A stretch of 64,000 bases of DNA from a virus: IMG/VR virus record IMGVR_UViG_3300025585_000041, positions 1-64,000 of that record; one strand, written 5' to 3'. Below the pieces are notes generated by a model. That model saw nothing but the letters and a program-made list of their open reading frames with translations. It did not search any database and was not told where the DNA came from. Position numbers and translations under genes: made by a program. Positions 4,148-62,971 of the stretch are shown here, piece after piece (the first letter of the stretch is position 1; each line of letters begins with the position of its first letter).

Positions 4148-4831
4148 GCTACCGAAATATATAATAGTGGATATGTTGAATTAATTGATGGAACAGAAAT
4201 ATATGTTACCCCACTAAAAATAAAATATCTTCGTTTATTTATGGAACAGTTTGAAAATGTTAAAAAGTCAAAAAGTGATGAAGAGGCTATTTCAGAATTA
4301 GCAAAATGTGCATTAATCTGCATGAAACAATATTATCCAAATATTAAAACAATAGAAGAACTTGAAGATAATATAGATATTAAAACAATTTATAAAGTAT
4401 TAGATATTGCTGCGGGAATTAAAATAGATAAAGAATCCCAAGAAAAAATAAAAGATCAAGCAACAGAAAGTCCAGGCGCTTCATGGGATAAACTCGATTT
4501 GGTCAAACTTGAGGCAGAGGTATTTTTGCTCGGTATTTGGAAAGACTATGAAGAACTAGAAACATCAATGTCTATGCCAGAATTAACAGAAACCTTAAAT
4601 ATAAAAAGAGAGTTAGATTATTCAGATAAAAAGTTTTATGCTGCAATTCAAGGTGTAGATTTAGATAAAAATACTAAAAAGTCAAATGCTTGGGAAGATA
4701 TGAAAGCAAGAGTATTTAGTAAAGGTAAGGCATCAGACTCAAGAGATGTTCTTTCACTTCAAGGAATAAATGCTAGTCAGGCTGGATTTGGTATTGGCAT
4801 GGGGCTAGAGTATGAAGAAATAAAAGATTAA
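4145..4831 (+). CDS. Tail assembly chaperone, long form
   Basis: 228 aa from the ATG at 4145. The first ~100 residues are clearly paralogous to the next gene: both start MAT, then an 'LIDGT(E/K)I' strand, 'PLKI..LR.FM..FE', 'A(I/L)..M(K/Q)QY.P' and '(T/P)(I/V)YK(V/I)'. The remaining ~125 residues form an extension ('EVFLLGIWKDYEELETSMSM', 'KKFYAAIQGVD') like the T part of G/GT tail chaperones. These proteins bind the tape measure before tube polymerisation. Here the long form is its own gene, so no frameshift is needed. Expression is probably from a leaderless message. Confidence 0.75.
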   Translation: MATEIYNSGYVELIDGTEIYVTPLKIKYLRLFMEQFENVKKSKSDEEAISELAKCALICMKQYYPNIKTIEELEDNIDIKTIYKVLDIAAGIKIDKESQEKIKDQATESPGASWDKLDLVKLEAEVFLLGIWKDYEELETSMSMPELTETLNIKRELDYSDKKFYAAIQGVDLDKNTKKSNAWEDMKARVFSKGKASDSRDVLSLQGINASQAGFGIGMGLEYEEIKD

Positions 4832-4846
4832 AAATAAAAGCCATTG

Positions 4847-4876
4847 TGGTATAATTAATTCAACCTTATAAGGAGG
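4847..4876 (+). promoter_or_regulatory. Extended -10 promoter and strong ribosome site for short chaperone
   Basis: TGG-TATAAT at 4847-4855, then AAGGAGG at 4870-4876 four bases before the ATG at 4881. The short chaperone thus has its own promoter and a near-perfect ribosome site, unlike the leaderless long form. Confidence 0.65.
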
Positions 4877-4880
4877 AATA

Positions 4881-5207
4881 ATGGCTACAACTGTGCATGA
4901 AGCAAAAGAAATCGTTCTTATTGACGGCACAAAGATAAAAGTAAGACCACTGAAGATATCTCTTCTTCGTCCATTTATGAAGAAGTTCGAAGGTATTGCA
5001 GCAGTGGCAGAAGATAATGAAAAATCAATGACTCTTCTTATGGAATGTGTAGCAATTGCTATGCAGCAATATAAGCCAGAGTTGTCAGAAGATCTTGCTG
5101 CTCTTGAAGAGAATTTGGATCTTCCTACAGTTTACAAAATCGTTGAAGAGGCTTCAGGAATTAAGTTAACAGAAGCCAGTCTTATCGGCGGACTTGCAAA
5201 CGTATAA
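4881..5207 (+). CDS. Tail assembly chaperone, short form
   Basis: 108 aa, aligned end to end with the N-terminal half of the preceding long chaperone: 'IVLIDGTKIKVRPLKISLLR', then 'CVAIAMQQYKP' and 'LPTVYKIVEEASGIK'. In lambda-type phages the short (G) form is made in large excess over the long (GT) form by rare frameshifting. Here it is a separate gene with its own promoter and a strong ribosome site. Codons are more host-like than in the long form, supporting higher expression. Confidence 0.75.
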   Translation: MATTVHEAKEIVLIDGTKIKVRPLKISLLRPFMKKFEGIAAVAEDNEKSMTLLMECVAIAMQQYKPELSEDLAALEENLDLPTVYKIVEEASGIKLTEASLIGGLANV

Positions 5208-5236
5208 AAAATAAATATAAATAGAGGTGTAATGGA

Positions 5237-8200
5237 ATGGCTGATGTTCAATCGAATATTCATGTAAATATCGATACGTCTGAAGCATTAGCCAGCATAA
5301 AACTTTTACAGAAGCAGATATCAGCCTTCCATACATCTATGGCGAAGAGTGGCGCAGCAGCGTCAGCAGTCTCCGCCAATATGCAACAAAATTTAATCAA
5401 CTCACTTAATGCTTCTGGTAAATGGTCTGCTTCTATGCGGACTGTTAAAACTACAACAGAATCTTTTACAAATGCTCTTGAAAAAAACAAACTTTCAATG
5501 CGAGATTACTATCGCTATTCAATGGGTGCTACAAAAACTTTCGGAAGATTATTTTCATCAGAATTTGATACCATAAGTAAGGTCGCACGTGAACGTGTCA
5601 AAGATTTACAAACTCAGTATATTAAATTAGGTAGAGATGCTAATGGGGCAATGAGAGCAATTGCTATTAGACCATTGGCTCTTGATATGCAAAACTATGG
5701 AACTCAAACTGCAATAGCATCACAAAGACAAGCATTGCTTAATCAGTTAATGAAGCAAGGCGCAACAAATATGCTTAACTTTGGTAAAAATACACAATGG
5801 GCTGGTCGTCAGTTAATGGTAGGCTTTACAATACCACTAACATACCTTGGAACTGCTGCTGCTAAAACTTTTATGCAATTAGAAGAACAGGCTATTAGAT
5901 TTAAACGTGTTTATGGAGAAATGTTTACTACTGGTGCAGAAACTGAAAAAATGCTTTCAGACATTCAAATACTTGCTAAACAATTTACAAAGTATGGTGT
6001 TGCTGTTGAAAAGACAATGGAGATGGCAGCCACTGCAGCAGCACAAGGCAAGATGGGTGCTGAACTGCTTGCACAGGTTAATGAAGCAACAAGATTATCT
6101 GTTTTAGGTGGCGTAGAACAAGAGCAATCTTTAGAAACTACAATATCCTTAACAAATGCTTTTGGATTGTCTGCAGAAAAATTAGCACAAAAAATTAACT
6201 TTTTAAACGCAGTAGAAAACCAAACAGTTGTATCTATTGAAGATTTAACAGTTGCTATACCAAAGGCTGGTCCAGTTGTAAAACAACTTGGTGGAGATGT
6301 TGAAGATCTTGCATTCTTCTTAACAGCAATGAAAGAAGGTGGAATTAATGCATCAGAAGGTGCAAACGCACTTAAGTCTGGACTTGCATCGTTAATTAAT
6401 CCAACAGATAAAGCATCTCAAATGCTTGCTGATATGGGAATTAATTTAAAGGGAATTGTTGAAACAAACAAGGGCAATGTAAAACAGGTTGTATTAGATT
6501 TTGCTGCAGCACTTAATACATTAGATCCATTAAATAGAGCAAAGGCAATTGAACAATTATTTGGTAAATTTCAGTTTGCACGTTTATCAACACTATTCCA
6601 AAATGTTATTCAGCAAGGAAATCAAGCAAGTCGTGTATTAAAATTAACTCAAGCCACAACAGAAGAACTTGCTATTTTATCTGAACGAGAATTATCTAAA
6701 GTTGAAGAGTCAACTACATATAAATTTAAGAAAACAATAGAGGATTTAAAGGTTAGTTTAGCACCAGTCGGTGAGCAATTTTTAAAAGCAATAACACCTA
6801 TAGCAGAGTTTATTGGTAAGGTATTAGAAAAGTTTAATAATCTTGGTGATGGAACTAAAAAGTTTGTTGTAATTCTAACAACACTTCTTGGCGGAATAGG
6901 TCCAATATTACTTATGACCTTTGGTTTATTGGCTAACGGACTTGCAAATATTATTAAACTATTTGTTAGCATGAAATCAATATTTAATCGTGCAGGACAA
7001 TCTTCAAATACTTTAGGAGAACAAACACAATATTTAACATCAGAGCAGGCAGAAGCAGCATCTGTCGCAGCATCTTTAAATCAAATACACACAAGATTAC
7101 AGCAAACATTTACATCTGAAACATCTGCTTTAAATGCATTAATAAGCGCCTATCAAAGAGCAATTGCTGCCCAACGTGGATTTAGTGGTCCAATTATAGG
7201 TGGGGGTAAGAGGGCAAAGTTTGCAAGTGGTACAACAAAGGTAAGACCATTTTATTTTGCTAGAGGTACAGATACTGTCCCTGCAATGCTTACTCCAGGA
7301 GAAGCAGTAATCCCAGCAGGTCCAGCACAAGATCCAAGAAATAAACCAGCAATAAAACATATGATTGCTGGTGGTACTATGGAATACCTTTCAGAAGGTG
7401 TTGGTAGTGTAGTAGAAAAGAAATTAAGAAGAATTGGTAGCGGATCTGAGGGTAGGGTTGGAAAGTCTGGCACAACAGTTCCAATTCCATATAAATTAAA
7501 TGTTTCAAATTCTGGAGGTGCTGTTCCATTTACAAGTATTAATCCAGCAAGTATGGTAAATCTAACTAGCATTTATGCAAAGGATATTGCTAAGGCTGCA
7601 AAGATTTCAGTTACATCAATTAACAAAGAAATAAAAGAATGGCAAATAGCAAATAAAAAAGCAATAGATGTAGCAACAGAAGCAGTTCAAAAGGGAATTC
7701 CAGCAGAAAAAGCCTTTGGCAATTTGATGGAAAAGTTTAATGCAGATATGAAGAGGGCTGGAGGCCCAGTTAGCAAGTTTGCAGACGCTGCTAGGAAAAT
7801 GGCTCCAATGTTACAACAAGATTTAATTCAAGCACAAAATGAGGCAAGAAGACTTGGACTTAATGTAAAAAATGCTGCTGATGCAACTGCACTTGCTGGT
7901 AAGTTACCAAATAATATAGTTGCACAATCAATTACAAAGCCTGGAAACTTTCAAGGTTTATCTAAGGCCAGAGGTGCAGGAATCTCAATGTTTGGAGGTG
8001 CTGCTGGATTACCACAATATGGAATTCCTAGATTTATGCTTACTCCAGGTATTGCACCAGCATCGCCAGCATATTTAGCAGGAACTTCTCAAGAACATTT
8101 TGGTCAAACAAAACAAGAGCAGGCTGCTAGGGCTGCTAATAGAGAACAAAGAATTAAACTTCGTGTAGGAACAAATCTTGGAAAACAAACAGCACAACAT

Positions 8201-48173: not shown

Positions 48174-48184
48174 TAGTGTATAAT
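48155..48184 (+). promoter_or_regulatory. Promoter before oxygenase/carbamoyltransferase cluster
   Basis: TTTACA at 48155-48160, 18-base spacer, TATAAT at 48179-48184 preceded by TG. AGGAGG at 48191-48196 then serves ATG 48201. The ATG at 48183 lies within the -10 and is rejected as start. Confidence 0.7.
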
Positions 48185-48200
48185 GTTAATAGGAGGAAAA

Positions 48201-48803
48201 ATGCATAGAATTAAAATTATAGATAATTTTATAGAGCCAATAGATGCTTTAACATTAATACAGCAACAAAATGATCCAAACTCAATTAGGCTTCCATATC
48301 CAGAATATTATAAAGAAAGATTTGGTGGTACATCTTTACCATATAACCCAACAGTAATGTCTATATTAAAGAAATATGGCGATAAATCTAATGAGGTTCA
48401 CAAAGAATTAAACGGATTTAATAGTCCAATATATGTGTTTAAGGCATTTGGTTCACACTGGACTACTGGCACAAAAGGACCGTTACATTTAGACGCACAA
48501 GATCCAGAGCCATGGATTGAGTGGAGTACTATAATATATCTAAATGAGGAGCCAGACTATACTGGAGGAAAAATATTTTTTCCAAATCAAGATTTTATTT
48601 ATCAACCAAAAAGATATTCTGCAGTCTTTTTTCCAAGTGCTGGAAGTGAATATATTCATGGTATAACAGAAGTAACTTCTGGCAATAGATATACCGCTTT
48701 ATATATGCATACATCTCTTCCTCAACATGCAGATCCAGATTTTCTTGGAGAAGATAAGAATCCAAAATGGAGGGCGCCAGAACATGAATTTAACTACTTA
48801 TGA
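48201..48803 (+). CDS. 2-oxoglutarate/Fe(II) oxygenase (prolyl 4-hydroxylase type)
   Basis: 200 aa from the ATG at 48201 (AGGAGG four bases upstream). The facial triad is 'GPLHLDAQ' (H-x-D) and 'EYIHGITEVTSGNRYTALYM' (distal His, then Arg for 2-oxoglutarate). 'YLNEEPDYTGGKIFFP' is typical of P4H-type oxygenases. It hydroxylates an unknown substrate. It overlaps the next oxygenase gene, which is of the same class, by 20 bases. Confidence 0.75.
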   Translation: MHRIKIIDNFIEPIDALTLIQQQNDPNSIRLPYPEYYKERFGGTSLPYNPTVMSILKKYGDKSNEVHKELNGFNSPIYVFKAFGSHWTTGTKGPLHLDAQDPEPWIEWSTIIYLNEEPDYTGGKIFFPNQDFIYQPKRYSAVFFPSAGSEYIHGITEVTSGNRYTALYMHTSLPQHADPDFLGEDKNPKWRAPEHEFNYL

Positions 48804-49455
48804 TTATGAAATATTAGATTTAGGATTAGTTTATTATAAAAATGCTTTAAATAATCCACAAGAAATTATTGATATAGTTAAATCTGTTGATGAAAAATAT
48901 AATCAAAAAGAACACGGAGATAATTATACTGCAGTTCAACCCTGGCATGCTTGGCAAAATGAAAGTGCTGGAACATTAGAAACTTTTTGTTGGCAAAAAT
49001 TTTTCCCAAAACCAGAGGACATTAGAGCAGATGATTATTATTATAAGGATCAGCAGTATGTCTCTAAAAGACTTTATGATGCATTAGATGCTGCAACAAA
49101 TCATTATACAAATATTATATATCCATTTGCATCAAGAAATATTAAGTCTAGAGAATATAGTGTGCACCTTTTAAGGTATGAAAAAGGTGGGTACCTACCA
49201 GCACATCAAGATCATGGGGTAAGTAGCAGAGTAATTTCTGTTGTTATGTATTTAAATAATGATTACGAAGGTGGAGAAATATCTTTTCCAAATTCTAATG
49301 TTAAAATAAAGCCAGAACCAGGAAGTATTATTTTCTTTCCTTCAAATTATTTATATATACATGAAGTTGCTCCAATTATTAGTGGAACTAGATATTCCAT
49401 GCCACATTGGTATCATAATATGAAGACTCCAATAATGTCGACTGGCCAGGAATAA
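48784..49455 (+). CDS. 2-oxoglutarate/Fe(II) oxygenase (prolyl 4-hydroxylase type), second
   Basis: 223 aa from the ATG at 48784, ten bases after GGAGG. Triad: 'LPAHQDHGVSSRVISVV' (H-x-D) and 'YIHEVAPIISGTRYSMPHW' (His and Arg). 'YLNNDYEGGEISFPN' is the family's central strand. It has a longer helical N-terminal domain than its neighbour. The two may act on the same substrate at different positions, next to an SGNH hydrolase and a carbamoyltransferase. Confidence 0.75.
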   Translation: MNLTTYDYEILDLGLVYYKNALNNPQEIIDIVKSVDEKYNQKEHGDNYTAVQPWHAWQNESAGTLETFCWQKFFPKPEDIRADDYYYKDQQYVSKRLYDALDAATNHYTNIIYPFASRNIKSREYSVHLLRYEKGGYLPAHQDHGVSSRVISVVMYLNNDYEGGEISFPNSNVKIKPEPGSIIFFPSNYLYIHEVAPIISGTRYSMPHWYHNMKTPIMSTGQE

Positions 49456-50144
49456 TGGAATTTTATGAAAATTATTTAACAAAAAACACCACTATCTCTC
49501 CAGTTTTTTGGCATAAAGATGGTATGCCAGATTATAGAAAAAATATTTCAAACAGTAATGTAATATATAAATTAAACTCACATGGATTAAGATCAGATGA
49601 ATTTATAAAAAATCATAATGGCGAACATATTTTATTTGCTGGCTGTTCTATAACTTGTGGTATAGGTGTTAATATAGAAGATACATGGGCATATAAAGTT
49701 TATTCTGATTTCAAAAATTCTTCTGGATTTTTTAATGTTTCTCTTCCAGGCGGTTCGCCAATAGAAATAATATCAAATATATATAAATATATAAATTTAT
49801 ATGGAAATCCAGATTATATTTTTATATTATTGCCACCAATACATAGGGATGGAAGATATATAATTAAAGATCATATTGATAAAGTTGTTTATAATTTTTA
49901 CAAATCTTTAGAAATTTTTTGTTATTTTAATAATATAAAACTTCTATCATCTTCCTGGTCATCTAAAAATGAATTTGATTTTTTAAATAATTTTGATACT
50001 TTTTTTGAAATTAATAAAAGCGATATAGATTATTATGGTGGTGAAATTCTTGGTGATGATAAACATCATCCTGGACCTGCAGCACATTTAATTTGGTATA
50101 ATGAATTTAAGAAGAGGATTAATTATGAAAATTTTAGGAATTAA
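49455..50144 (+). CDS. SGNH/GDSL-like hydrolase
   Basis: 229 aa, starting in the previous stop (TAATG). Block I 'ILFAGCSITCGIGVNIEDTW' has the nucleophile Ser, 'NVSLPGGSPIEI' the Gly/oxyanion region, 'YIFILLPPIHRDGRY' the third block and 'DDKHHPGPAAHLIW' the catalytic Asp/His block. Such enzymes add or remove acyl groups on sugars. Lying before a carbamoyltransferase suggests tailoring of the same glycan. Confidence 0.7.
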   Translation: MEFYENYLTKNTTISPVFWHKDGMPDYRKNISNSNVIYKLNSHGLRSDEFIKNHNGEHILFAGCSITCGIGVNIEDTWAYKVYSDFKNSSGFFNVSLPGGSPIEIISNIYKYINLYGNPDYIFILLPPIHRDGRYIIKDHIDKVVYNFYKSLEIFCYFNNIKLLSSSWSSKNEFDFLNNFDTFFEINKSDIDYYGGEILGDDKHHPGPAAHLIWYNEFKKRINYENFRN

Positions 50145-51561
50145 TGAAACAACACATGATGCTTCTGTATCATTAATAGATAATGGTAGCATTTTGTTTG
50201 CTGGCCATGCTGAAAGATACAGTAAAGAAAAAAATGATTGGTTTACAAACGACGAACTAATAGATCAAGCACTTTCGTATGGTAAGCCAGATCAAATAGC
50301 ATATTATGAAAATCGTTGGTTAAAAAAAATAAGAATAATGACTAGGGGTGGCTTCGGAGGAGGAAAACCTTATTATCTTGAAAGAAATGATTTAAGATGG
50401 ATACCAAGAGAATCTTTTAGCCATCACCATTCTCATGCAGCAGCAGGTTATTACACGAGTAAATTTAATGATGCAGTAATAGTTGTTTTAGATGCCATAG
50501 GGGAATATAATACATCAACAATCTGGACTGGACAGGGATCATATATTAAGCAGGTCTATAAAAAAAATCATCCATTTAGTTTTGGGCTATTCTATTCTGC
50601 CTTTACTCAATTAGTTGGATTAAAACCAAATGAAGAAGAGTATATTATGATGGGCATGGCTGCATATGGTGACTGGACAAGATATTATAACAAGGTAAAA
50701 GAATACTTTTCATCTATAGATGACCAAAAATATGGATTCCATAATGGTATTTTAGATTGGAATGAAATAATAGATGAACAAGCCAAGTTTGATATAGCAG
50801 CAGCAGTTCAAAAAATATATGAGGATAGATTAGTTAATTTCATGGCCATGGCTCAAAAATTAACTGGTAAAAAGAATCTTGTTTTTATGGGTGGATGCGC
50901 CCTTAATTGTGCAGCAAACACAATGTTATGGAGGATGTTTGATGATGTTTGGATTATGCCAAATCCAGGCGACGCTGGATCCTCTCTTGGCGCAGCAGCA
51001 GCAGCATATGGAAATCATTTAAATTGGGAGCATCCATATTTAGGTTACGATCTTGGTGGAGAGTATCCAGTCAGTAAAATTATGGCAGAATTAATAAGAA
51101 ATAAAATTGCAGCAGTTGCAACTGGACGTGCAGAATACGGACCAAGAGCACTTGGAAACAGAAGTATTTTGGCAGATCCAAGGGATCCTGACATTAAAGA
51201 TAAGGTTAATTTAATTAAAAAAAGAGAATTATTCAGGCCTTTTGCTCCAGTAATTTTAGAAGAGCATGCATCAAAATGGTTTGATATGAATTATACTTCT
51301 CCTTATATGCAGTATACTCCTAAATGTTTAAAGCCAGAACTTATACCGTCTGTAGTACATAAAGACGGTACATCTAGAGTTCAAACTGTAAATAAAAATC
51401 AACATCCAGGACTATACAATCTATTATCGGAATGGTATGCTGTCACTGGAATCCCAATATTACTTAATACAAGTTTAAATATTAAAGGTCAGCCATTATT
51501 AAATGATGAAAATGATATTTTAGAATGGGAAAAAGCATACAATACTAAAATAGTACGATGA
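50125..51561 (+). CDS. O-carbamoyltransferase (NodU/CmcH family)
   Basis: 478 aa from the ATG at 50125, with AAGAGGA upstream. The YrdC-like N-terminal half starts 'MKILGINETTHDASVSLIDN' and has the metal-binding 'FSHHHSHAAAGYYTS'. The ATP-binding core has 'VFMGGCALNCAANTMLW' and 'GDAGSSLGAAAAAYG'. The C-terminal half has 'GRAEYGPRALGNRSILADPR'. It transfers a carbamoyl group from carbamoyl phosphate, via ATP, to a hydroxyl on a sugar or other small molecule. In some phages relatives act on hydroxymethylated DNA bases. Confidence 0.9.
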   Translation: MKILGINETTHDASVSLIDNGSILFAGHAERYSKEKNDWFTNDELIDQALSYGKPDQIAYYENRWLKKIRIMTRGGFGGGKPYYLERNDLRWIPRESFSHHHSHAAAGYYTSKFNDAVIVVLDAIGEYNTSTIWTGQGSYIKQVYKKNHPFSFGLFYSAFTQLVGLKPNEEEYIMMGMAAYGDWTRYYNKVKEYFSSIDDQKYGFHNGILDWNEIIDEQAKFDIAAAVQKIYEDRLVNFMAMAQKLTGKKNLVFMGGCALNCAANTMLWRMFDDVWIMPNPGDAGSSLGAAAAAYGNHLNWEHPYLGYDLGGEYPVSKIMAELIRNKIAAVATGRAEYGPRALGNRSILADPRDPDIKDKVNLIKKRELFRPFAPVILEEHASKWFDMNYTSPYMQYTPKCLKPELIPSVVHKDGTSRVQTVNKNQHPGLYNLLSEWYAVTGIPILLNTSLNIKGQPLLNDENDILEWEKAYNTKIVR

Positions 51562-52277
51562 ACAAAAAAGTTGTATTTGCTGCTATGCCAATAGGCAATA
51601 ATGATCATATTGCTATAGCATTTAAAAATTATTTAAATCAAACAGATATAGCAATTGTTGAAACAGAAAAAGTTTTCAAAAATTTTTGCGATATTAATGG
51701 TGTTTATATTAACAATATATATGAATATAATAACTCTAATTCTTTAGAAATAATTTTAAATGGTATTAAAAATAACAAAAATATACTTGTTGTGTCAAAT
51801 GATGGATATCCAAATATACAAGATTTTGCTTCACCATTAATACAATCTTTAATAGAGAACAACATAGAAATTGAATTAATTCCTGGTCCAAATGCAATAT
51901 TACAATCTTTATTTTTTTCAGGATTTGATGGAGATAGTGGACAATTCTATTTTGGAGGAAGAATACCAAATACTGATACAGTTAAATTTTTAGAAACATT
52001 ATCTAATATTAATTGTCCTATAGTGCTGATATGTATTCCATTTTTAAATAAACATTTAGAGGATATAGCAACTGTTTTTCCATATAGAGATATTGCCATA
52101 TGTATTGATCTTAGTAAGCCAACACAGAAAATTATAAGGGGGAAGACTACTAATGCTCTAGAATTTATAAAGCCATATAGACTTTTTCCATTTAATTTTG
52201 ACATAATAAATGGATGGAAAAACAATATACATACCTTTTACTCACATTACACACTTGTCATATCTCAAATCAAATGA
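51558..52277 (+). CDS. RsmI-like tetrapyrrole-fold methylase
   Basis: 239 aa, overlapping the preceding stop (ATGA). It follows the RsmI pattern: 'FAAMPIGNNDHIAIAF' (RsmI: TPIGN.xDI), 'IAIVETEKVFKNF', 'ILVVSNDGYPNIQDF' (RsmI: SDAGTPxISDP), 'IELIPGPNAILQSLFFSGF' and 'FYFGGRIPN'. RsmI methylates 16S rRNA C1402. The Ala-Gly-Thr-Pro motif is altered, so the substrate may differ. A phage copy in a sugar-modification operon could act on host ribosomes or a small molecule. Confidence 0.75.
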   Translation: MNKKVVFAAMPIGNNDHIAIAFKNYLNQTDIAIVETEKVFKNFCDINGVYINNIYEYNNSNSLEIILNGIKNNKNILVVSNDGYPNIQDFASPLIQSLIENNIEIELIPGPNAILQSLFFSGFDGDSGQFYFGGRIPNTDTVKFLETLSNINCPIVLICIPFLNKHLEDIATVFPYRDIAICIDLSKPTQKIIRGKTTNALEFIKPYRLFPFNFDIINGWKNNIHTFYSHYTLVISQIK

Positions 52278-56300: not shown

Positions 56301-57230
56301 ATGTTTGTATACGGAGATTGGAAGCAGCCAAATAAACTAGAGGGACTACATAGAATAAGTGTTCCAAAATTAGGTTATGTATGGCCAATTATGGGACAGT
56401 TAGAAGATAATGAGGAATTTTCTGAAAGACTAATTGAAAAACCTGATCTTCATTTAGTCTTATGGCAAAAAAATTTTTTACATGCATTTTTTAATATGGT
56501 TCAGTACATTTTACACTATCATAGAATAAATAATGATGCTTATTTTGTCATAATGTTTGGATTAGATTATCGTGAAGAAGACAAAGAAATAAATCATGCT
56601 AAGTTTATCTTAAAACTTTTAGATGATAAAAAAATTAAATATGAATTAGTTTATTTAAAAGAAGAGTCAATTGTAGTTAAAGATGCAACATATATGTCAG
56701 TTATACCTTTTTCTTCTTTTGTTTTTAAAGAAGTGTATGACTATTGTAGTACTAAAATAAATAGAGTTAAATCTCCTAATAAAGTTGCCTATTTAGCAAG
56801 ATCAAAAGTTCCACCAAAAGCAGAAAATAGTATTTTTAATGGAAAAGATCAAAATTCTTTTAGAATAAAAAATGATTTAAGGATAGAAGATGAAGAGGTA
56901 TTAATTGAATATTTTAAGCAAAAAGGTTTTGACATAGTTTATCCAGAAGATTTTGCAAGTTTTGAAGAACAAATTATTTATTTTGACAGTGTAAAGGCAA
57001 TGATATGTCCATCTGGTTCTGGCATGGCTAATATGATGTTTTTGCAGCCATCACAAATTGTGGTGGAATTGCAAACCCCAGTATTAATAGGTGGAACACA
57101 ACAAGTGCATCCATTTTATGAAGGTTTTGCTTGGGCAAAAAAACATAATCTTATTACTATTCCACATGAAAGAAAATCAGAGCATATAATAGAATATTTT
57201 GAAAAAAGAAAATTTTTGGAGTATTTATGA
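56301..57230 (+). CDS. Glycosyltransferase, GT61/DUF563-like, copy 1
   Basis: 309 aa, starting at the base after WhiB's stop. 'KVAYLARSKVPPKAENS' , 'LIEYFKQKGFDIVYPEDFAS', 'FEEQIIYFDSVKAMICPSGSG' and 'MANMMFLQPSQIVVELQT' follow the GT61 C-terminal pattern, where the sugar nucleotide binds. It shares this whole region with the next gene. It would transfer a sugar to a glycan or protein. Confidence 0.7.
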   Translation: MFVYGDWKQPNKLEGLHRISVPKLGYVWPIMGQLEDNEEFSERLIEKPDLHLVLWQKNFLHAFFNMVQYILHYHRINNDAYFVIMFGLDYREEDKEINHAKFILKLLDDKKIKYELVYLKEESIVVKDATYMSVIPFSSFVFKEVYDYCSTKINRVKSPNKVAYLARSKVPPKAENSIFNGKDQNSFRIKNDLRIEDEEVLIEYFKQKGFDIVYPEDFASFEEQIIYFDSVKAMICPSGSGMANMMFLQPSQIVVELQTPVLIGGTQQVHPFYEGFAWAKKHNLITIPHERKSEHIIEYFEKRKFLEYL

Positions 57231-58189
57231 TAAGAATGGAACCAAGAAAGCCAATATATTATGATGGCTTATTTAAAATTGAAGATGGATTTAATGCTTC
57301 TATGCCAATTATTACTAAGATAACTCATGAAGAATTTAAGGGCTATACATTTAATCAACATAATAACGGAGATCACTTTTTAGATGATACTAATAGAAAA
57401 AGGATAGTCGTTAGATTTGAGTCAGCATTTTTTCATATATTTTTTCACGTACTTGGTCCAATTTTATATGAATATAAACAAGATAAAAACATTGAGGTAA
57501 TACTATTACATCCAAGCAAAGAAAAAGATATTTTTCATAATAGTGGATTATTTGTAATAAATGTATTAAGAAAATATGGTATTCCGTATAGCGTTGTGCA
57601 AACACATTCTATTTATCCCCCAATAGTTAGAAATTTTTATTATTACGAAGAGACAGAGTTATGTGGAGAATTTATTCGCTGTCTTGATGAGATGGTTGAA
57701 GGATATCGAGATCTTTCTATATCTAATGACAAAAAAATATATGTTTCTAGACAAAAAAAACAAAACATGATGGCAACACAATTACACCAAATGTCACAAG
57801 AAGAAATAGATAAATTAGAATTTAAAGATGATTTAAGAATTGATAATGAAGAATATTTAGAGAATTTATTAAGAGCCAATGGATTTGAAATATGTACCCC
57901 AGAAATGTTTAATAGCATTGAAGATCAAATAAAATATTTTGATAAAGCAAAAATTATAGTTTCATTATCTGGATCAGGACTCACTAATTTGCTTTTTATG
58001 AGAAAAAATACAACCATTATAGAGTTAAGTACAACACAATTACTTAAACAGAATATAGAATTTCATTTTCATTTTTATCTAATATCTTCTTTATTTTCTG
58101 AAAAAATATATGTATCAGTACCAAATGTCACTAGAAAATATGATAAAATAGAAAAAGAACTTGAAAGGTTTATAAAAATATATGACTAA
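57227..58189 (+). CDS. Glycosyltransferase, GT61/DUF563-like, copy 2
   Basis: 320 aa, coupled to copy 1 by ATGA. 'KIYVSRQKKQNMMATQ', 'LENLLRANGFEICTPEMFNS', 'IEDQIKYFDKAKIIVSLSGSG' and 'LTNLLFMRKNTTIIELST' align with copy 1. Divergence is high apart from this C-terminal half, so acceptor specificity probably differs. It overlaps the nucleotidyltransferase gene by eight bases, tying transferases and sugar-activating genes into one unit. Confidence 0.7.
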   Translation: MIRMEPRKPIYYDGLFKIEDGFNASMPIITKITHEEFKGYTFNQHNNGDHFLDDTNRKRIVVRFESAFFHIFFHVLGPILYEYKQDKNIEVILLHPSKEKDIFHNSGLFVINVLRKYGIPYSVVQTHSIYPPIVRNFYYYEETELCGEFIRCLDEMVEGYRDLSISNDKKIYVSRQKKQNMMATQLHQMSQEEIDKLEFKDDLRIDNEEYLENLLRANGFEICTPEMFNSIEDQIKYFDKAKIIVSLSGSGLTNLLFMRKNTTIIELSTTQLLKQNIEFHFHFYLISSLFSEKIYVSVPNVTRKYDKIEKELERFIKIYD

Positions 58190-58910
58190 TATACTTATTC
58201 CAATTGCTGGACTTGGTAGTAGGTTTCCAGTAGACATATATAAAACAACTAAGCCATTAATAAAAATAAATGGAATTTCTATGATACAGCATGCCATAAA
58301 TTCTTTATCTATAAAAGGAAAGTATAATTTTGTAGTTAGAGATAACATATTTTTTGATGAATTATATTCAACATTAAAAAACATTGAGCCAACATGTAAT
58401 ATTATTAAGATTGATAAATTAACAAATGGACCAGCAGAAACATGCTTGATGGCAAAAGATTTTATCAATAATGATGAAGAACTCATAATTGCTAACTCTG
58501 ATCAAATAATGTGGTGGGATTCTGATTTATTTTTACAGGTAGCACGTAATTCAAAATATGATGGAATGATTGTAACTTATACCGCAAATACAGATAAAAA
58601 TAGTTATGCTAAAATAAATAAAAATGGATTAGTTTTAGAAATAAAAGAAAAAGAAATTATAAGTGATATATCATTAAATGGAATACATTATTGGAAACAT
58701 GGAAAAGATTTTGTTGATAGTGCAAGCAAAATGATATTAAATAACGAAAGATATAATGGAGAATTTTATGTAGGACCTACTTATAATTCAATGATTAAAG
58801 ATGGTAAAAAAATTGGAATTTATCACATACCTTCTTTTCAACATAATGCTGTTGGAGTACCTTCTGATTTAGAACTATATATGGAGAAACTATGGAAATT
58901 AGAAGAATAG
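58182..58910 (+). CDS. Sugar-phosphate nucleotidyltransferase
   Basis: 242 aa. 'NILIPIAGLGSRFPVDIY' carries the G-x-G-x-R loop, followed by 'TKPLIKINGISMIQHAINSL' (the conserved Lys) and 'ELIIANSDQIMWWDSDLF' (metal-binding Asp). 'GPAETCLMAKDF' replaces the usual uridine-binding loop. These features are those of RmlA/GlmU-type enzymes that form an NDP-sugar. The missing left-handed helix means no acetyltransferase. First gene of the RuBisCO-like module. Confidence 0.8.
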   Translation: MTNILIPIAGLGSRFPVDIYKTTKPLIKINGISMIQHAINSLSIKGKYNFVVRDNIFFDELYSTLKNIEPTCNIIKIDKLTNGPAETCLMAKDFINNDEELIIANSDQIMWWDSDLFLQVARNSKYDGMIVTYTANTDKNSYAKINKNGLVLEIKEKEIISDISLNGIHYWKHGKDFVDSASKMILNNERYNGEFYVGPTYNSMIKDGKKIGIYHIPSFQHNAVGVPSDLELYMEKLWKLEE

Positions 58911-59215
58911 AAGACTTTACCAGAGGATGGATTATAGGAAACTTTGATCCGTCTTTATTAAAAACAGATAAATTTGAGGTTGGTTTGTTAACTCATAAGG
59001 CTGGAGAAATGTGGCCAAAACATTACCATGAGGTTGCAACAGAATATAATGTTCTTGTATCTGGTAGAATGATAATACAAGGAAAAGAATTAAAATCTGG
59101 AGACGTTTTTGTTTTTAATCCAGGAGATATAGCAGATCCAATATTTTTAGAAGATTGTTCAGTTTTAGTAGTAAAAGTTCCATCTATTATAGGAGATAAG
59201 TATGAAGTTTTATAG
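58892..59215 (+). CDS. Cupin-domain protein
   Basis: 107 aa, overlapping the nucleotidyltransferase by 19 bases and the RuBisCO-like gene by 14. A single small cupin: 'PKHYHEVATEYNVLVSGRM' gives the H-x-H and Glu metal ligands and 'SGDVFVFNPGDIADPIFLED' the second cupin motif. It resembles sugar epimerases/isomerases or sugar-binding cupins next to nucleotide-sugar genes. Reaction unknown. Confidence 0.75.
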   Translation: MEIRRIEDFTRGWIIGNFDPSLLKTDKFEVGLLTHKAGEMWPKHYHEVATEYNVLVSGRMIIQGKELKSGDVFVFNPGDIADPIFLEDCSVLVVKVPSIIGDKYEVL

Positions 59216-60407
59216 AGACTTAGACGACTCTGAAAAACAAAGATGTATAGTTGTAACATATTATATAGAAGTCAATCCTTCACATGGTAGATTAAATGAT
59301 GCTGCATGGGCGCTTGCTATTGGACAAAGTGTTGGTAATCCAAAACAAAGAAATAGTTGGGAAACTGATGATATATTTGAAATGTCATCATGTGTTATTT
59401 ATGATGATGAAGAAAAATTAAAATTAGCACTAAATGGTTTTGTTAAAATTGGTTTTCCAAAAATAAATTCAGATTGGGATAACGATGGTATTTCGCATTT
59501 CTTATGTCAGATTATGGGTGGACAATTAGACATTGATGTATTTAAAGTATGTAGAGTGGTAGATGTTGAATTTCCAGAAAGTGTAAAAAAGAGTTTTCTT
59601 GGCCCTAAGTTTGGTATGTCTGGAATAAGAGAGTTAACTGGACAAAAAAATAAGCCATTGTTAGGCGGTATTGTAAAACCTAAAACTGGAATATCAGTTA
59701 AACAACTAGGATATATAGTTAAAGAGTTAATTGATGGTGGCGTTGATTTTATTAAAGAAGATGAAATATTATCTAACCCAACATTTTGTAGGCTAGAAGA
59801 AAGAGTTGAGCACATTGCTAACATTATCGCAGATTCTGGAAGAAAGGTAGTTTTTGCTCATTGTATTAATGCTGATCCACATGCTATTTTAAATAGAGTA
59901 AAAACAGTATATGAAAATGGTGGTAATGGTGTACATGTAAACTTCTGGAGCGGATTTGGAGCATATAACTCTATACGAAAAATGGATCTTCCAATATATA
60001 TGCATTTTCAAAAAAGCGGGGATAAGATATTAACAAATCCTAGTCATAATTTTAGAATTGATTGGTATGTTATTTGTAAGTTAGCAGCATTAATGGGAGT
60101 AGATACGATACATACTGGTATGTGGGGTGGGTATTTAAGTGATGACGAAGATAATTTAAAAAGATCTATAGATTTATTAAATGATAATAATGTTGTGCCA
60201 GCGCTAAGTTGCGGAATGCATCCTGGCCTTGTAGAGGCTATAAGCAGAAGGTTTGGTATAAACTATATGGCAAACGTAGGAGGAGCCATCCACGGGCATT
60301 CTGGTGGCACTTTAGGGGGCACTATGGCCATGAGGCAGGCTATAGATAAGTCCTATGGTCCAGAATATATTTCTGCTATAGAAAAGTGGGGAATTGTTAA
60401 TGATTAA
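59202..60407 (+). CDS. RuBisCO-like protein (form IV type)
   Basis: 401 aa. N-terminal 'IVVTYYIEVNP' and 'LNDAAWALAIGQSVGN' match RuBisCO large-subunit N domains. In the barrel, 'GGIVKPKTGIS' keeps the substrate lysines (K159, K161, equivalents of K175/K177). 'GGVDFIKEDEIL' keeps the carbamylated lysine and metal ligands (K185, D187, E188). H268 and H304 match H294 and H327, and 'SCGMHPG' keeps S336. E60, N123, R295 and loop-6 K334 are replaced by Q42, a Gly, F269 and Y311. CO2 fixation is therefore unlikely, but enediolate chemistry (isomerisation, tautomerisation or decarboxylation) remains possible. Overlaps neighbours on both sides. Confidence 0.88.
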   Translation: MKFYRDLDDSEKQRCIVVTYYIEVNPSHGRLNDAAWALAIGQSVGNPKQRNSWETDDIFEMSSCVIYDDEEKLKLALNGFVKIGFPKINSDWDNDGISHFLCQIMGGQLDIDVFKVCRVVDVEFPESVKKSFLGPKFGMSGIRELTGQKNKPLLGGIVKPKTGISVKQLGYIVKELIDGGVDFIKEDEILSNPTFCRLEERVEHIANIIADSGRKVVFAHCINADPHAILNRVKTVYENGGNGVHVNFWSGFGAYNSIRKMDLPIYMHFQKSGDKILTNPSHNFRIDWYVICKLAALMGVDTIHTGMWGGYLSDDEDNLKRSIDLLNDNNVVPALSCGMHPGLVEAISRRFGINYMANVGGAIHGHSGGTLGGTMAMRQAIDKSYGPEYISAIEKWGIVND

Positions 60408-60840
60408 AATATCACATAGGGGTAATCTATATGGTAAAAATGAATCAAGAGAAAACTCCCCAGATTATATTGCTGAGGCTATAAATGCTGGATACAATGT
60501 TGAAATAGATTTTTGGTTTGTAAATAATAAAATGTATTTAGGACATGATAAACCAACATATGAGATCGACATATATTTTTTAAATTCTTATATTAAAAAG
60601 TTATGGATTCATTGTAAAAATTTAGAAGCCTTAGATTTAGTTTTATCAATGCCAAAATATTATAATGCGTTTTGGCACCAAGAAGATGATTTTACAATAA
60701 CTACTAATCATTATATATGGACATACCCTGGTATGCCAGTTACACCAAAAAGTATTTTGGTTCATCAAGAAATGCCAACCGCAGATGTTTTAAATATGCA
60801 GATGGCTGGAATCTGTAGTGATCATATTGGAAGAGTATAA
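60400..60840 (+). CDS. Glycerophosphodiesterase-like protein (GDPD fold, short)
   Basis: 146 aa from ATG 60400, overlapping the RuBisCO-like gene by eight bases (a TTG at 60394 is upstream in frame). 'IKISHRGNLYG' holds the first His-Arg-Gly motif, 'NVEIDFWFVNNKMYLGHD' the Glu-x-Asp and His, the GDPD metal site. It is half the length of full GDPD enzymes (~250-300 aa), matching short versions seen in surface-polysaccharide gene clusters. It might cleave or form a polyol phosphodiester. Confidence 0.7.
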   Translation: MIKISHRGNLYGKNESRENSPDYIAEAINAGYNVEIDFWFVNNKMYLGHDKPTYEIDIYFLNSYIKKLWIHCKNLEALDLVLSMPKYYNAFWHQEDDFTITTNHYIWTYPGMPVTPKSILVHQEMPTADVLNMQMAGICSDHIGRV

Positions 60841-60842
60841 AA

Positions 60843-61049
60843 ATGAACAATAAAGAATATTTAGAATTTTTAAGACAAAAAAATAAAAAAATTATGTCTA
60901 AATGTTATTACTGTGATGGTTTTGCAATAACAATAATTGCAGATGGTTACTCAATACATCCTGTATGTAAAAATCATGATAATAGATCATTTGATATAAT
61001 TGAAGATGATATAAATAAAATTTTTGAAAGTCAGAGGGATTTTGAATGA
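60843..61049 (+). CDS. Small zinc-finger-like protein
   Basis: 68 aa. 'SKCYYCDGFAITIIADGYSI' then 'HPVCKNHDN' gives C-x2-C...H-x2-C...H ligands in one small ribbon. The ends are acidic helices. It overlaps the following gene by four bases. No family recognised. Confidence 0.6.
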   Translation: MNNKEYLEFLRQKNKKIMSKCYYCDGFAITIIADGYSIHPVCKNHDNRSFDIIEDDINKIFESQRDFE

Positions 61050-61807
61050 TTATACAAATTATAGGATTACCAGGTTCTGGTAAGACAGAGTTAGCAAAAG
61101 CATTAAAAGAACGAATTAATGCTATTCATCTTAATGCGGATGAGGTTCGTGCTACCGTAAATTCTGACCTTGGCTTTAGCCATGAAGATAGGATTGAGCA
61201 GGCAAGACGAATGGGTGAGATGGCTCGTCTTATTGCAAAACAAGGGGTTGCACCAGTAGTAGTTGATTTTGTTTGTCCTACAGAATTAACTCGTGCAGCA
61301 TTTGGTAAGCCAGATATTTTAGTTTATATGGAAACAATTGAGGCTGGTAGATTTGAAGATACTAATAAAATGTTTGAAGTGCCATCTAACTTTGATATGG
61401 CATTTATTAGTCATGAATGGGATGCCAATGAAAAAGCATCGGTAATCATTAATCAATTTAATTTACACGATTGGTCAGCACCTACAACATTAATGCTTGG
61501 TAGATATCAGCCTTGGCATGAAGGCCATCATGCTTTGTATGAAGAGGCTGGGAAAAGAACAAAACAAGTGCTTCTTGGGGTACGCAATACATATAACACA
61601 AGTCCAAAAGATCCGCTTAAATTTGATCAAGTTAAAGAATATATTTCAAAAGATGAGTTTATGGATGGGGCAATGGTGCTACGTTTGCCAAATATTACTA
61701 ACATAGTTTATGGTCGTGATGTAGGATATAAAATTGAACAGATTGAACTTGCTCCAGAAATACAGGCTATTTCTGCGACACAAAAACGTAAGGAAATGGG
61801 AATATGA
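61046..61807 (+). CDS. P-loop kinase fused to HxGH nucleotidyltransferase
   Basis: 253 aa in two domains. Residues 1-~145 form an APS-kinase-like P-loop domain: 'IIGLPGSGKTELAKAL' (Walker A) and 'INAIHLNADEVRATVNSDLG'. Residues ~150-253 form a nucleotidyltransferase: 'LMLGRYQPWHEGHHALYEEA' (HxGH) and 'ISATQKRKEMG' (ISxTxxR). The pair could phosphorylate then nucleotidylate one substrate, as HldE does, or could act in NAD salvage. It uses more host-like codons than its neighbours. A degenerate relative is at 53039-53734. Confidence 0.8.
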   Translation: MIIQIIGLPGSGKTELAKALKERINAIHLNADEVRATVNSDLGFSHEDRIEQARRMGEMARLIAKQGVAPVVVDFVCPTELTRAAFGKPDILVYMETIEAGRFEDTNKMFEVPSNFDMAFISHEWDANEKASVIINQFNLHDWSAPTTLMLGRYQPWHEGHHALYEEAGKRTKQVLLGVRNTYNTSPKDPLKFDQVKEYISKDEFMDGAMVLRLPNITNIVYGRDVGYKIEQIELAPEIQAISATQKRKEMGI

Positions 61808-62343: not shown

Positions 62344-62474
62344 AAAATAAATTTATTTTTGGCATTATTGGAATAATAACCTTATCAACAATATTAACAT
62401 TTTGGGTTAGGCAGTTGACAAAAATTGAAGACTTTGATATATTTGGAGATATAGAAGACGAGGAAGATCTATAA
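62340..62474 (+). CDS. Tiny membrane protein with acidic tail
   Basis: 44 aa, starting in the previous stop (ATGA) and ending in the next start (TAATG). 'FIFGIIGIITLSTILTFWV' is a membrane helix, followed by a very acidic C-terminus ('EDFDIFGDIEDEEDL'). Support comes from the tight coupling on both sides. Confidence 0.6.
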   Translation: MKNKFIFGIIGIITLSTILTFWVRQLTKIEDFDIFGDIEDEEDL

Positions 62475-62971
62475 TGCAAACATTTCTACCATCATCAGAT
62501 TTTAATATCTGTGCAAAAATGCTTGATTCTAAAAGATTAAATAAGCAAATATTAGAAGGCTACCAAATACTAAATGTGCTCTCTGGAAACTCACCTACTG
62601 GTGGTTGGCGCAATCATCCTGCCGTACTTATGTGGAAAGGCAGCGAATGGATGCTTAATGAATACGTTTATGCAATGATTAAAGAAGCAAAGTCTAGAAA
62701 TATAAAAGTTGATAAAAATCAAGAAAATATGAAATTATTAAAAACAAGATTTTCTAAAATTTGGGGTAAAAATAAACCTAAATGGTTTATAGATAAAAAT
62801 AAATTAATGCTTGTTATTACCACACACAAAGCAAATTTATTTAAAAAAGATCCTCTTTATTATGCAAAATTTCAACACGCTATTTATAGCATAAATAACT
62901 CACCTTGCTGTCCAAATCGTAAAGAACCTTGTAAGTATTATTGGCCAACACACGAGGATAAATATGCTTGA
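62474..62971 (+). CDS. Pyrimidine-dimer glycosylase-like protein (MSMEG_6728 type)
   Basis: 165 aa. 'MQTFLPSSDFNICAKMLDSK', 'RLNKQILEGYQILNVLSG', 'NHPAVLMWKGSEWML' match a family found in actinobacteria and phages and often annotated as pyrimidine-dimer DNA glycosylase or MSMEG_6728 family. It would repair UV damage in phage DNA, useful in sunlit water. The C-terminal part has Cys residues ('PCCPNRKEPCKYYW') that could bind metal. Function inferred from the family. Confidence 0.7.
   Translation: MQTFLPSSDFNICAKMLDSKRLNKQILEGYQILNVLSGNSPTGGWRNHPAVLMWKGSEWMLNEYVYAMIKEAKSRNIKVDKNQENMKLLKTRFSKIWGKNKPKWFIDKNKLMLVITTHKANLFKKDPLYYAKFQHAIYSINNSPCCPNRKEPCKYYWPTHEDKYA

Follow-up and report, generated by a model that had tools for sequence, protein, structure and literature searches.

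A phage RuBisCO-like protein with an intact predicted metal site and replaced RuBisCO residues recurs beside a nucleotidyltransferase in viruses and cells

The phage DNA described in this article encodes a RuBisCO-like protein (RLP) that belongs to a clade common to viruses and cells, is replaced at residues typical of RuBisCO, and stands in a recurring set of genes together with a nucleotidyltransferase, a small cupin-like protein, and a small protein resembling glycerophosphodiester phosphodiesterases (GDPDs). The window, meaning the whole stretch of 64,000 nucleotides that was analyzed, comprises positions 1-64,000 of the IMG/VR virus record IMGVR_UViG_3300025585_000041, which is 75,869 bases long. 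Herein, the RLP (P0001) is encoded on the plus strand at 59202-60407 by an open reading frame (ORF) of 401 amino acids running from ATG to stop. At a rough probability of 0.55, the RLP is a sugar-phosphate-converting enzyme that feeds the nucleotidyltransferase for glycan synthesis; confidence in any specific substrate is lower.

Both domain models of the RuBisCO large chain match the RLP, namely PF00016 (RuBisCO_large; E 2.9e-38, 132.2 bits, cut-off 30.1) and PF02788 (RuBisCO_large_N; E 7.6e-5, 23.4 bits, cut-off 20.7), and phmmer aligns it with solved RuBisCOs at a best E of 1.4e-42. The AlphaFold2 model has a pLDDT of 91.8 and a pTM of 0.91, and all 50 listed structural matches of this model are RuBisCOs and RLPs. 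The top match is the RuBisCO of P. horikoshii (2cwx; Z 43.2, root-mean-square deviation (rmsd) 2.4, 381 residues aligned), tied with MtnW of B. subtilis (2zvi; Z 42.9, rmsd 2.8, 372 residues aligned). By domain models and fold, the RLP is a genuine RuBisCO-fold protein. The window also contains matches to tape-measure, tail, DnaB-like helicase, and DNA polymerase proteins and a weaker match to a terminase (E 4.2e-10), which rules out host contamination. A preliminary description of the window, made from the sequence alone, had reported an RLP in a phage, and domain models, structure model, structural matches, and phage genes agree with it.

Residue equivalences follow a MAFFT alignment against a form I row, and phmmer and profile alignments agree on Q270/K271; counts refer to 49 dereplicated viral members, to 21 cell rows, and to the 41 clade rows of the alignment (20 viral and 21 cell rows). 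K159 and K161 of the RLP align with K175 and K177 of RuBisCO, and K185, D187, and E188 align with the carbamate lysine K201 and with D203 and E204; the latter three are present in 49/49 viral members and 21/21 cell rows. The clade thereby has the Lys/Asp/Glu metal-ligand set of the RuBisCO superfamily, with K185 being a putatively carbamylatable lysine. S336 aligns with S379, and H304 aligns with H327, this position being His in 36/49 and Gln in 13/49 viral members. The substitutions are G41 for E60, N46 for T65, G107 for N123, Q270 for H294, K271 for R295, Y311 for K334, and C337 for G380. G41, Q42, N46, G107, K159, K161, K185, D187, E188, Q270, Y311, S336, and C337 are invariant in 49/49 viral members, and the cell rows share the same invariant positions. 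Position 271 is Lys in 41/49 and Ser in 8/49 viral members, and Lys in 20/21 and Arg in 1/21 cell rows. None of the 14 sampled form I-III rows departs from E60, N123, H294, and K334, which are replaced in all 41 clade rows; at E60, N123, H294, R295, and K334 of a bona fide RuBisCO the clade carries Gly, Gly, Gln, Lys or Ser, and Tyr. Read from these alignments, the metal site of the RLP is intact and RuBisCO active-site residues are lost.

This is the pattern that the preliminary description had proposed, an enolizing RuBisCO-like metal site with the carboxylation residues lost, and the alignment of clade rows supports it. Its retained residues K159, K161, K185, D187, E188, and S336 hold in all viral members, as do the exchanges of N123 for Gly and of K334 for Y311, and K185, D187, and E188 lie on the active-site positions. 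Its H304 is right as the equivalent of H327, a position with Gln in 13 of the viral members. Other assignments are displaced: H268, named as the kept catalytic histidine, precedes the H294 position by two residues; the R295 position is K271 instead of F269; and Q42, given for E60, is off by one position.

The RLP is far from being a singular gene. Relatives are encoded on 227 IMG/VR stretches, of which the best 80 loci, whose best segments are 55 to 100% identical, were read; linkage counts use 49 dereplicated loci. No RLP match at E 1e-5 came from a search with the protein against 50,697 GenBank phage records. Genome contigs yielded 23 RLP loci from SAR11, other Alphaproteobacteria, Legionella, Azospirillum, Elusimicrobia, Verrucomicrobia, Bacteroidota, Patescibacteria, and archaea; since the genome scan used two peptide patterns, distant cellular relatives may be missed. 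Within the genus Legionella, 4/22 genomes searched carry the gene. A profile of the viral RLPs scores listed clade members at 299 bits or more and other listed RuBisCO homologues at 203 bits or less. The preliminary description missed the large clade common to viruses and cells.

In a first tree of 72 rows, a single clade (SH-aLRT 100) unites the 20 viral with the 21 cell rows; outside of it lie MtnW (2,3-diketo-5-methylthiopentyl-1-phosphate enolase, the form IV YkrW), OiaX (3-oxo-isoapionate-4-phosphate decarboxylase) with its relatives, the Photo-type row 2qyg, and forms I, II, and III. This tree came with a warning of long branches meeting. A second tree of 56 rows, obtained by leaving out 16 of the 72 (three long ones and thirteen for thinning), shows an RLP clade of 32 rows with a support of 100/99, which recurs in all (100%) of the 200 bootstrap trees. 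The sister position of MtnW is weakly supported (80/88), both MtnW rows lying outside the clade, and the OiaX/non-photo rows are separate from it (100/99). Since the trees hold no IV-GOS, IV-AMC, IV-DeepYkr, or IV-Aful sequences, the term separate clade applies relative to the rows sampled. The row labels NonPhoto, IVx, and IVy were made in this analysis, with row L196 checked by its match to PDB 3nwr; rows L187 and L188 (OiaX) and L203 (MtnW) are verified by family score and two other OiaX rows carry provisional labels, and the form I, II, and III labels derive from scores and genome origin, not from a curated cut-off. In both trees, some rows from SAR11, Alphaproteobacteria, and Bacteroidota are mixed in with the viral ones, so that exchange of RLP genes between phages and cells is likely, to judge by the trees; some of the interleaved cell contigs may themselves be viral.

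Family models give the same picture. The best NCBIfam score of the RLP is that for form III RuBisCO, 198 bits against a cut-off of 497. The MtnW models give 129.3 bits (TIGR03332, cut-off 513.6) and 153 bits (NF007095, cut-off 409), where the MtnW reference row L203 reaches 368 and 431 bits and passes only the cut-off of NF007095. With the OiaX model, the RLP scores 147 bits at a cut-off of 700, compared with 780 and 778 bits for two OiaX reference rows. Within the rows sampled, membership in MtnW and OiaX is rejected by family scores and trees; the preliminary description had likewise placed the RLP outside the methionine-salvage and apionate families.

In the window, the RLP gene is part of a head-to-tail arrangement of four genes on the plus strand, whose ORFs overlap by 19, 14, and 14 bases as called (the starts being predicted), which fits one operon. 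The first gene, at 58182-58910, encodes a nucleotidyltransferase of the NTP_transferase type with 242 amino acids (PF00483 E 4.2e-5, 23.7 bits, cut-off 21.2; phrog_3980 E 2.6e-57). The profile of its family has its best PDB match in 4evw, titled nucleoside-diphosphate-sugar pyrophosphorylase (E 8.5e-35). It is followed at 58892-59215 by a small cupin-like protein of 107 amino acids, whose match to Cupin_2 (E 2.1e-4, 21.4 bits) lies under the cut-off of 27.2. H44 and E51 of this protein are invariant in 34/34 aligned members and H46 is present in at least 90%; PDB matches are weak, quercetin dioxygenase being the top one with an E of 2e-5 and no single stretch passing. Downstream of the RLP, at 60394-60840, lies a mini GDPD-like protein of 148 amino acids, shorter than the GDPD chains in the Foldseek listing. 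It has no Pfam match at E 0.01. GDPDs are marked by HR, EN, E-x-D, and H-D motifs on a TIM barrel; residues of this type in the small protein, H8-R9, E20-N21, E37, D39, and G50-H51, are invariant in 53/53 aligned members. The family profile matches the PDB GDPD 7e0v with an E of 2.7e-5, but over only about 50 positions. The AlphaFold2 model of the protein has a pLDDT of 96.7, and GDPD rows lead its Foldseek matches with weak E-values (best 6.8e-3; none at 0.001 or better).

With genes counted up to 12 ORFs away from the RLP and on its strand, the nucleotidyltransferase is present in 48 of the 49 viral loci, the cupin in 41, and the GDPD-like protein in 37. The background in the same neighborhoods comprises 474 families, of which the next commonest occurs in 25/49 loci and the median in 1. 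In 20/23 cell loci, the nucleotidyltransferase stands no more than three ORFs, as called, from the RLP, in two of them on the opposite strand (L087 and L094). Loci without it nearby are L089 and L105, on contigs of 3.1 and 3.7 kilobases (kb), and L099, where the contig ends just past the RLP and no nucleotidyltransferase is found in the preceding 10 kb. In Azospirillum (L100), an apparent fusion of RLP and nucleotidyltransferase was discarded, as the 706-amino-acid ORF lies in a different frame and the RLP has its own ORF at 4396-5643; ORFs were called by an in-house script that can miss or misframe genes, as it did here and for a phage Bellamy cupin that was found by tblastn. The preliminary description had named sugar-activating partner genes, which the Pfam matches and the viral linkage substantiate, but had overlooked the recurring cupin and GDPD-like genes as well as the enzymes that stand elsewhere with the same nucleotidyltransferase family.

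Cyanophages provide examples of these other enzymes. GenBank phages contribute 19 records with the nucleotidyltransferase family, RefSeq duplicates counted, and 18 of these records are from Synechococcus phages. Phage Bellamy encodes a nucleotidyltransferase-RpiB fusion, followed by a cupin homologue (45.5% identity) and, further on, a GDPD-like gene. In phage S-SKS1 (L107:7998-9422), the nucleotidyltransferase is fused to RibB (DHBP synthase; PF00926 E 5.4e-65), in phage S-8S53 to an HAD domain, and phage S-SM2 has two tandem nucleotidyltransferase copies near an annotated class II aldolase. The cyanophage fusions share the nucleotidyltransferase family with the RLP loci and, in the inspected RpiB loci, also the cupin and GDPD-like genes (5/5), whereas RpiB, RibB, or HAD takes the place of the RLP. 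Pentose or pentulose 5-phosphates are the substrates of RpiB and RibB, and relatives of RpiB also accept hexose 6-phosphates. On viral contigs, 30 loci were obtained with the RpiB-fusion query and 11 with the RibB-fusion query; the cupin is found in 27 and the GDPD-like gene in 26 of these 41 loci, and the RLP in none of them. One of the RpiB loci (L130) has weak HAD and PfkB matches just upstream of the fusion. The cyanophage GDPD-like query, for which the best 80 of 112 loci were taken and the GDPD-like gene was re-found by hidden Markov model (HMM) in 70/80, gave the nucleotidyltransferase in 73/80, RpiB in 10/80, and the RLP in 0/80 loci. The cupin query, read as the best 80 of 443 loci nearest to the cupin of the window and re-found by HMM in 75/80, gave the RLP in 73/80 and the nucleotidyltransferase in 78/80; many of these contigs are shared with the RLP sample, so that the co-occurrence with the RLP is neither independent nor unbiased.

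A PMM-like gene (L362:6324-7025; PF03332 E 5.8e-16) lies between cupin and GDPD-like gene in one locus, the usual position of the RLP, and L364 has the same layout by gene order. Five loci combine RLP, cupin, and nucleotidyltransferase with a separate RibB, and the four inspected have a second nucleotidyltransferase; in L357, a locus with RLP and separate RibB, weak HAD and weak transaldolase matches lie in between. What stays constant in these arrangements is the nucleotidyltransferase; its changing companion is in many cases a sugar-phosphate enzyme. As a separate observation, HAD-type and transaldolase-type genes follow the nucleotidyltransferase-RibB fusion in L116, which is related to S-SKS1; such loci possibly represent a viral route to an activated four-carbon unit.

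Given an intact metal site and a position otherwise taken by sugar-phosphate enzymes, the RLP would most simply enolize a sugar phosphate and deliver the product for activation. It would herein act as a Mg2+/carbamate-type enolizing enzyme, most likely on a pentulose monophosphate, and convert it to an isomer or a rearranged product, which the adjacent nucleotidyltransferase would subsequently couple to a nucleotide. Isomerization or epimerization would perhaps be the task of the cupin, and the GDPD-like protein would act as a phosphodiesterase or phosphatase, which could process a cyclic or diester phosphate. Glycosyltransferases encoded nearby would then attach the residue to a glycan that is made by the phage or belongs to the host surface. 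The suggested substrate derives from the phosphate sites: T65, W66, and K334, which we take to bind the 1-phosphate of ribulose bisphosphate (P1), are replaced in the clade, and the equivalents of R295, H327, and S379, presumably the other phosphate site (P2), are better kept, so that the sugar may be a pentulose monophosphate. We regard this residue-based clue as a weak lead.

Several observations weigh against this scheme. H294 is catalytic in RuBisCO, and because its position is Gln in all members counted, the proton chemistry of the RLP must differ. The variation of K271 and H304 makes the argument for a monophosphate from the P2 site a weak one. The cupin was not found in 8/49 and the GDPD-like gene in 12/49 RLP loci, some of which are cut by contig ends, and all four RibB-query loci inspected are without both (one of them, L121, matches the nucleotidyltransferase part only). 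L261 and L379 carry nucleotidyltransferase, cupin, and GDPD-like gene with nothing in between, which contradicts a strict rule of one slot. Finally, the chemistries of RpiB, RibB, and PMM differ, so that the shared partner is no proof of a shared substrate.

Among other explanations, an RLP that makes or breaks a C-C bond, by carboxylation, decarboxylation, or transcarboxylation, in the manner of OiaX, and thus supplies a branched or carboxylated sugar for activation, comes first, although it is unlikely. Fold and metal site speak for enolate chemistry, open to trapping by CO2, OiaX is a decarboxylase according to its NCBIfam name, and the RLP keeps K177, which is replaced in the sampled MtnW, OiaX, NonPhoto, and Photo rows. 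Like the RLP, OiaX and the non-photo RLPs possess the metal-site residues, and OiaX acts on a sugar-acid phosphate; unlike the RLP, they retain H294, R295, and K334 and form their own clade, and the exchange of E60, N123, H294, and K334 throughout the RLP clade speaks against such a reaction. That the RLP is a noncatalytic scaffold or regulator of the nucleotidyltransferase seems to us quite unlikely: the two genes are rarely apart, as for a complex, but viruses and cells alike leave the metal-site residues and several residues of the pocket unchanged, which is more than a scaffold would need.

An enolase or isomerase of methionine salvage, acting on methylthio-sugar phosphates, is improbable. 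MtnW shares with the RLP the RuBisCO fold, the Lys/Asp/Glu metal site, and a similar length, it is among the best structural matches, and in one tree it stands, with weak support, as the sister group. However, the mtnW score lies far under its cut-off, and the RLP clade is separate with respect to the two MtnW rows, R. rubrum-type DeepYkr RLPs being outside the sample. Furthermore, MtnW rows keep H294 and W66 and are without K177, H327, and K334; in the RLP clade, H294 is exchanged for Gln, K177 is never lost, and most members have H327. No family of methionine salvage is among the 25 commonest neighbor families of 67 and of 95. Least probable, with hardly any chance remaining, is an auxiliary carbon-fixation gene in the sense of a viral RuBisCO. 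Pfam names the gene a RuBisCO large chain, and viral rbcL is listed under carbon fixation in PMC12607003 and PMC8506154. Archaeal form III RuBisCO is also among the best PDB matches of the RLP, but E60, N123, H294, R295, and K334 are kept in 9/9 form III rows and replaced in the RLP, whose score of 198 bits stays far under the RuBisCO cut-offs. Carbon fixation was rejected on these active-site residues.

Directly upstream of the four genes, two GT61-type glycosyltransferases are encoded on the plus strand at 56301-57230 and 57227-58189 (PF04577 E 4.3e-15 and 1e-17), which are possible users of the activated sugar; this family occurs in 6/81 loci and is outside the conserved gene set. On the other side, at 61046-61807 on the plus strand, a protein combines an APS-kinase-like P-loop domain (PF01583 E 1e-15, residues 2-85) with a nucleotidyltransferase-like domain (PF01467 E 0.0021, residues 150-186, under its cut-off). 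It matches the kinase family phrog_10255 with an E of 6.7e-65, a family found in 6/81 RLP loci, and is possibly an accessory sugar-activating enzyme. Neighbor surveys covered 69/178 viral families and 80/110 neighbor proteins from 14/23 cell loci, and the 25 commonest of 67 and of 95 Pfam families were considered. Variable glycan genes surround the viral set, comprising glycosyltransferases, epimerases, methyltransferases, and WavE and GT61 types, and cell RLPs are accompanied by epimerases of the GDP-mannose-dehydratase type, glycosyltransferases, and methyltransferases. In three Legionella loci (L102, L103, and L104), the RLP is followed by the nucleotidyltransferase, and a LicD-family gene lies just upstream on the other strand; the LicD family comprises phosphodiester-forming transferases.

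Further genes of the same glycan island are a Nol-like carbamoyltransferase at 50101-51561 (phrog_1601 E 5.6e-107), by which the phage may carbamoylate its sugars, two adjacent and overlapping genes of the 2OG-Fe(II) oxygenase type at 48183-49455 (PF13640 E 3.7e-7 and 2.3e-17), and a tetrapyrrole-methylase-type protein at 51558-52277 (PF00590 E 2.4e-9). Just past the island, at 62474-62971, lies a match to pyrimidine dimer DNA glycosylase (PF03013 E 1.6e-18).

In 2007, ocean data yielded 65 RuBisCO homologues in new groups apart from every known form (PMC1821046), and the review PMC10173188 lists IV-GOS as a subgroup; the two are presumably one set. Neither source gives a function, a phage link, or a gene set in its passages on these groups. 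Because the RLP clade contains SAR11 and viral members, an overlap with IV-GOS is plausible. A viral RbcL from a landfill clusters with RbcL-like proteins, and rbcL was also found in random IMG/VR viruses (passages of PMC12607003, 2025); viral rbcL and cbbL from Great Salt Lake are listed as carbon-fixation genes (passages of PMC8506154, 2021). For the RLP clade, the aligned residues argue against this label. The passages of these four papers contain neither the gene set, nor the RLP residues, nor a role in sugar metabolism, and among the openly licensed PMC papers listed by the searches, no title or beginning of an abstract concerns a phage RLP in a sugar-nucleotide gene set, which does not show its absence from print. 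A RuBisCO-like clade with such a distinct active site and biosynthetic setting was not met in the literature searched.

RLPs are a leading case of a famous fold being reused, and to our knowledge only few of their reactions are known. It is a tentative view, at slightly less than even odds, that supplying building blocks for surface glycans is a third job of the RuBisCO fold, next to carbon fixation and to salvage or catabolism. In this view, a dedicated RLP clade of phages, of some bacteria, and of archaea makes a non-standard sugar phosphate for activation by the nucleotidyltransferase, and in a modular viral gene set for sugars the RLP is an exchangeable cartridge among RpiB, RibB, and PMM types. 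Because its position is taken elsewhere by RpiB, and in one case by a PMM-like gene, a handful of candidate substrates would suffice to test the reaction of the RLP. If the view is true, some of the environmental RuBisCO homologues first met in ocean data would gain a function through the RLP clade. Viral genes called rbcL and assigned to carbon fixation may, as a caution, not be carbon-fixing. A clade tied to a nucleotidyltransferase in phages, SAR11, Legionella, and archaea would extend the RuBisCO fold to the biosynthesis of activated sugars, and its pathway could reveal a new monosaccharide.

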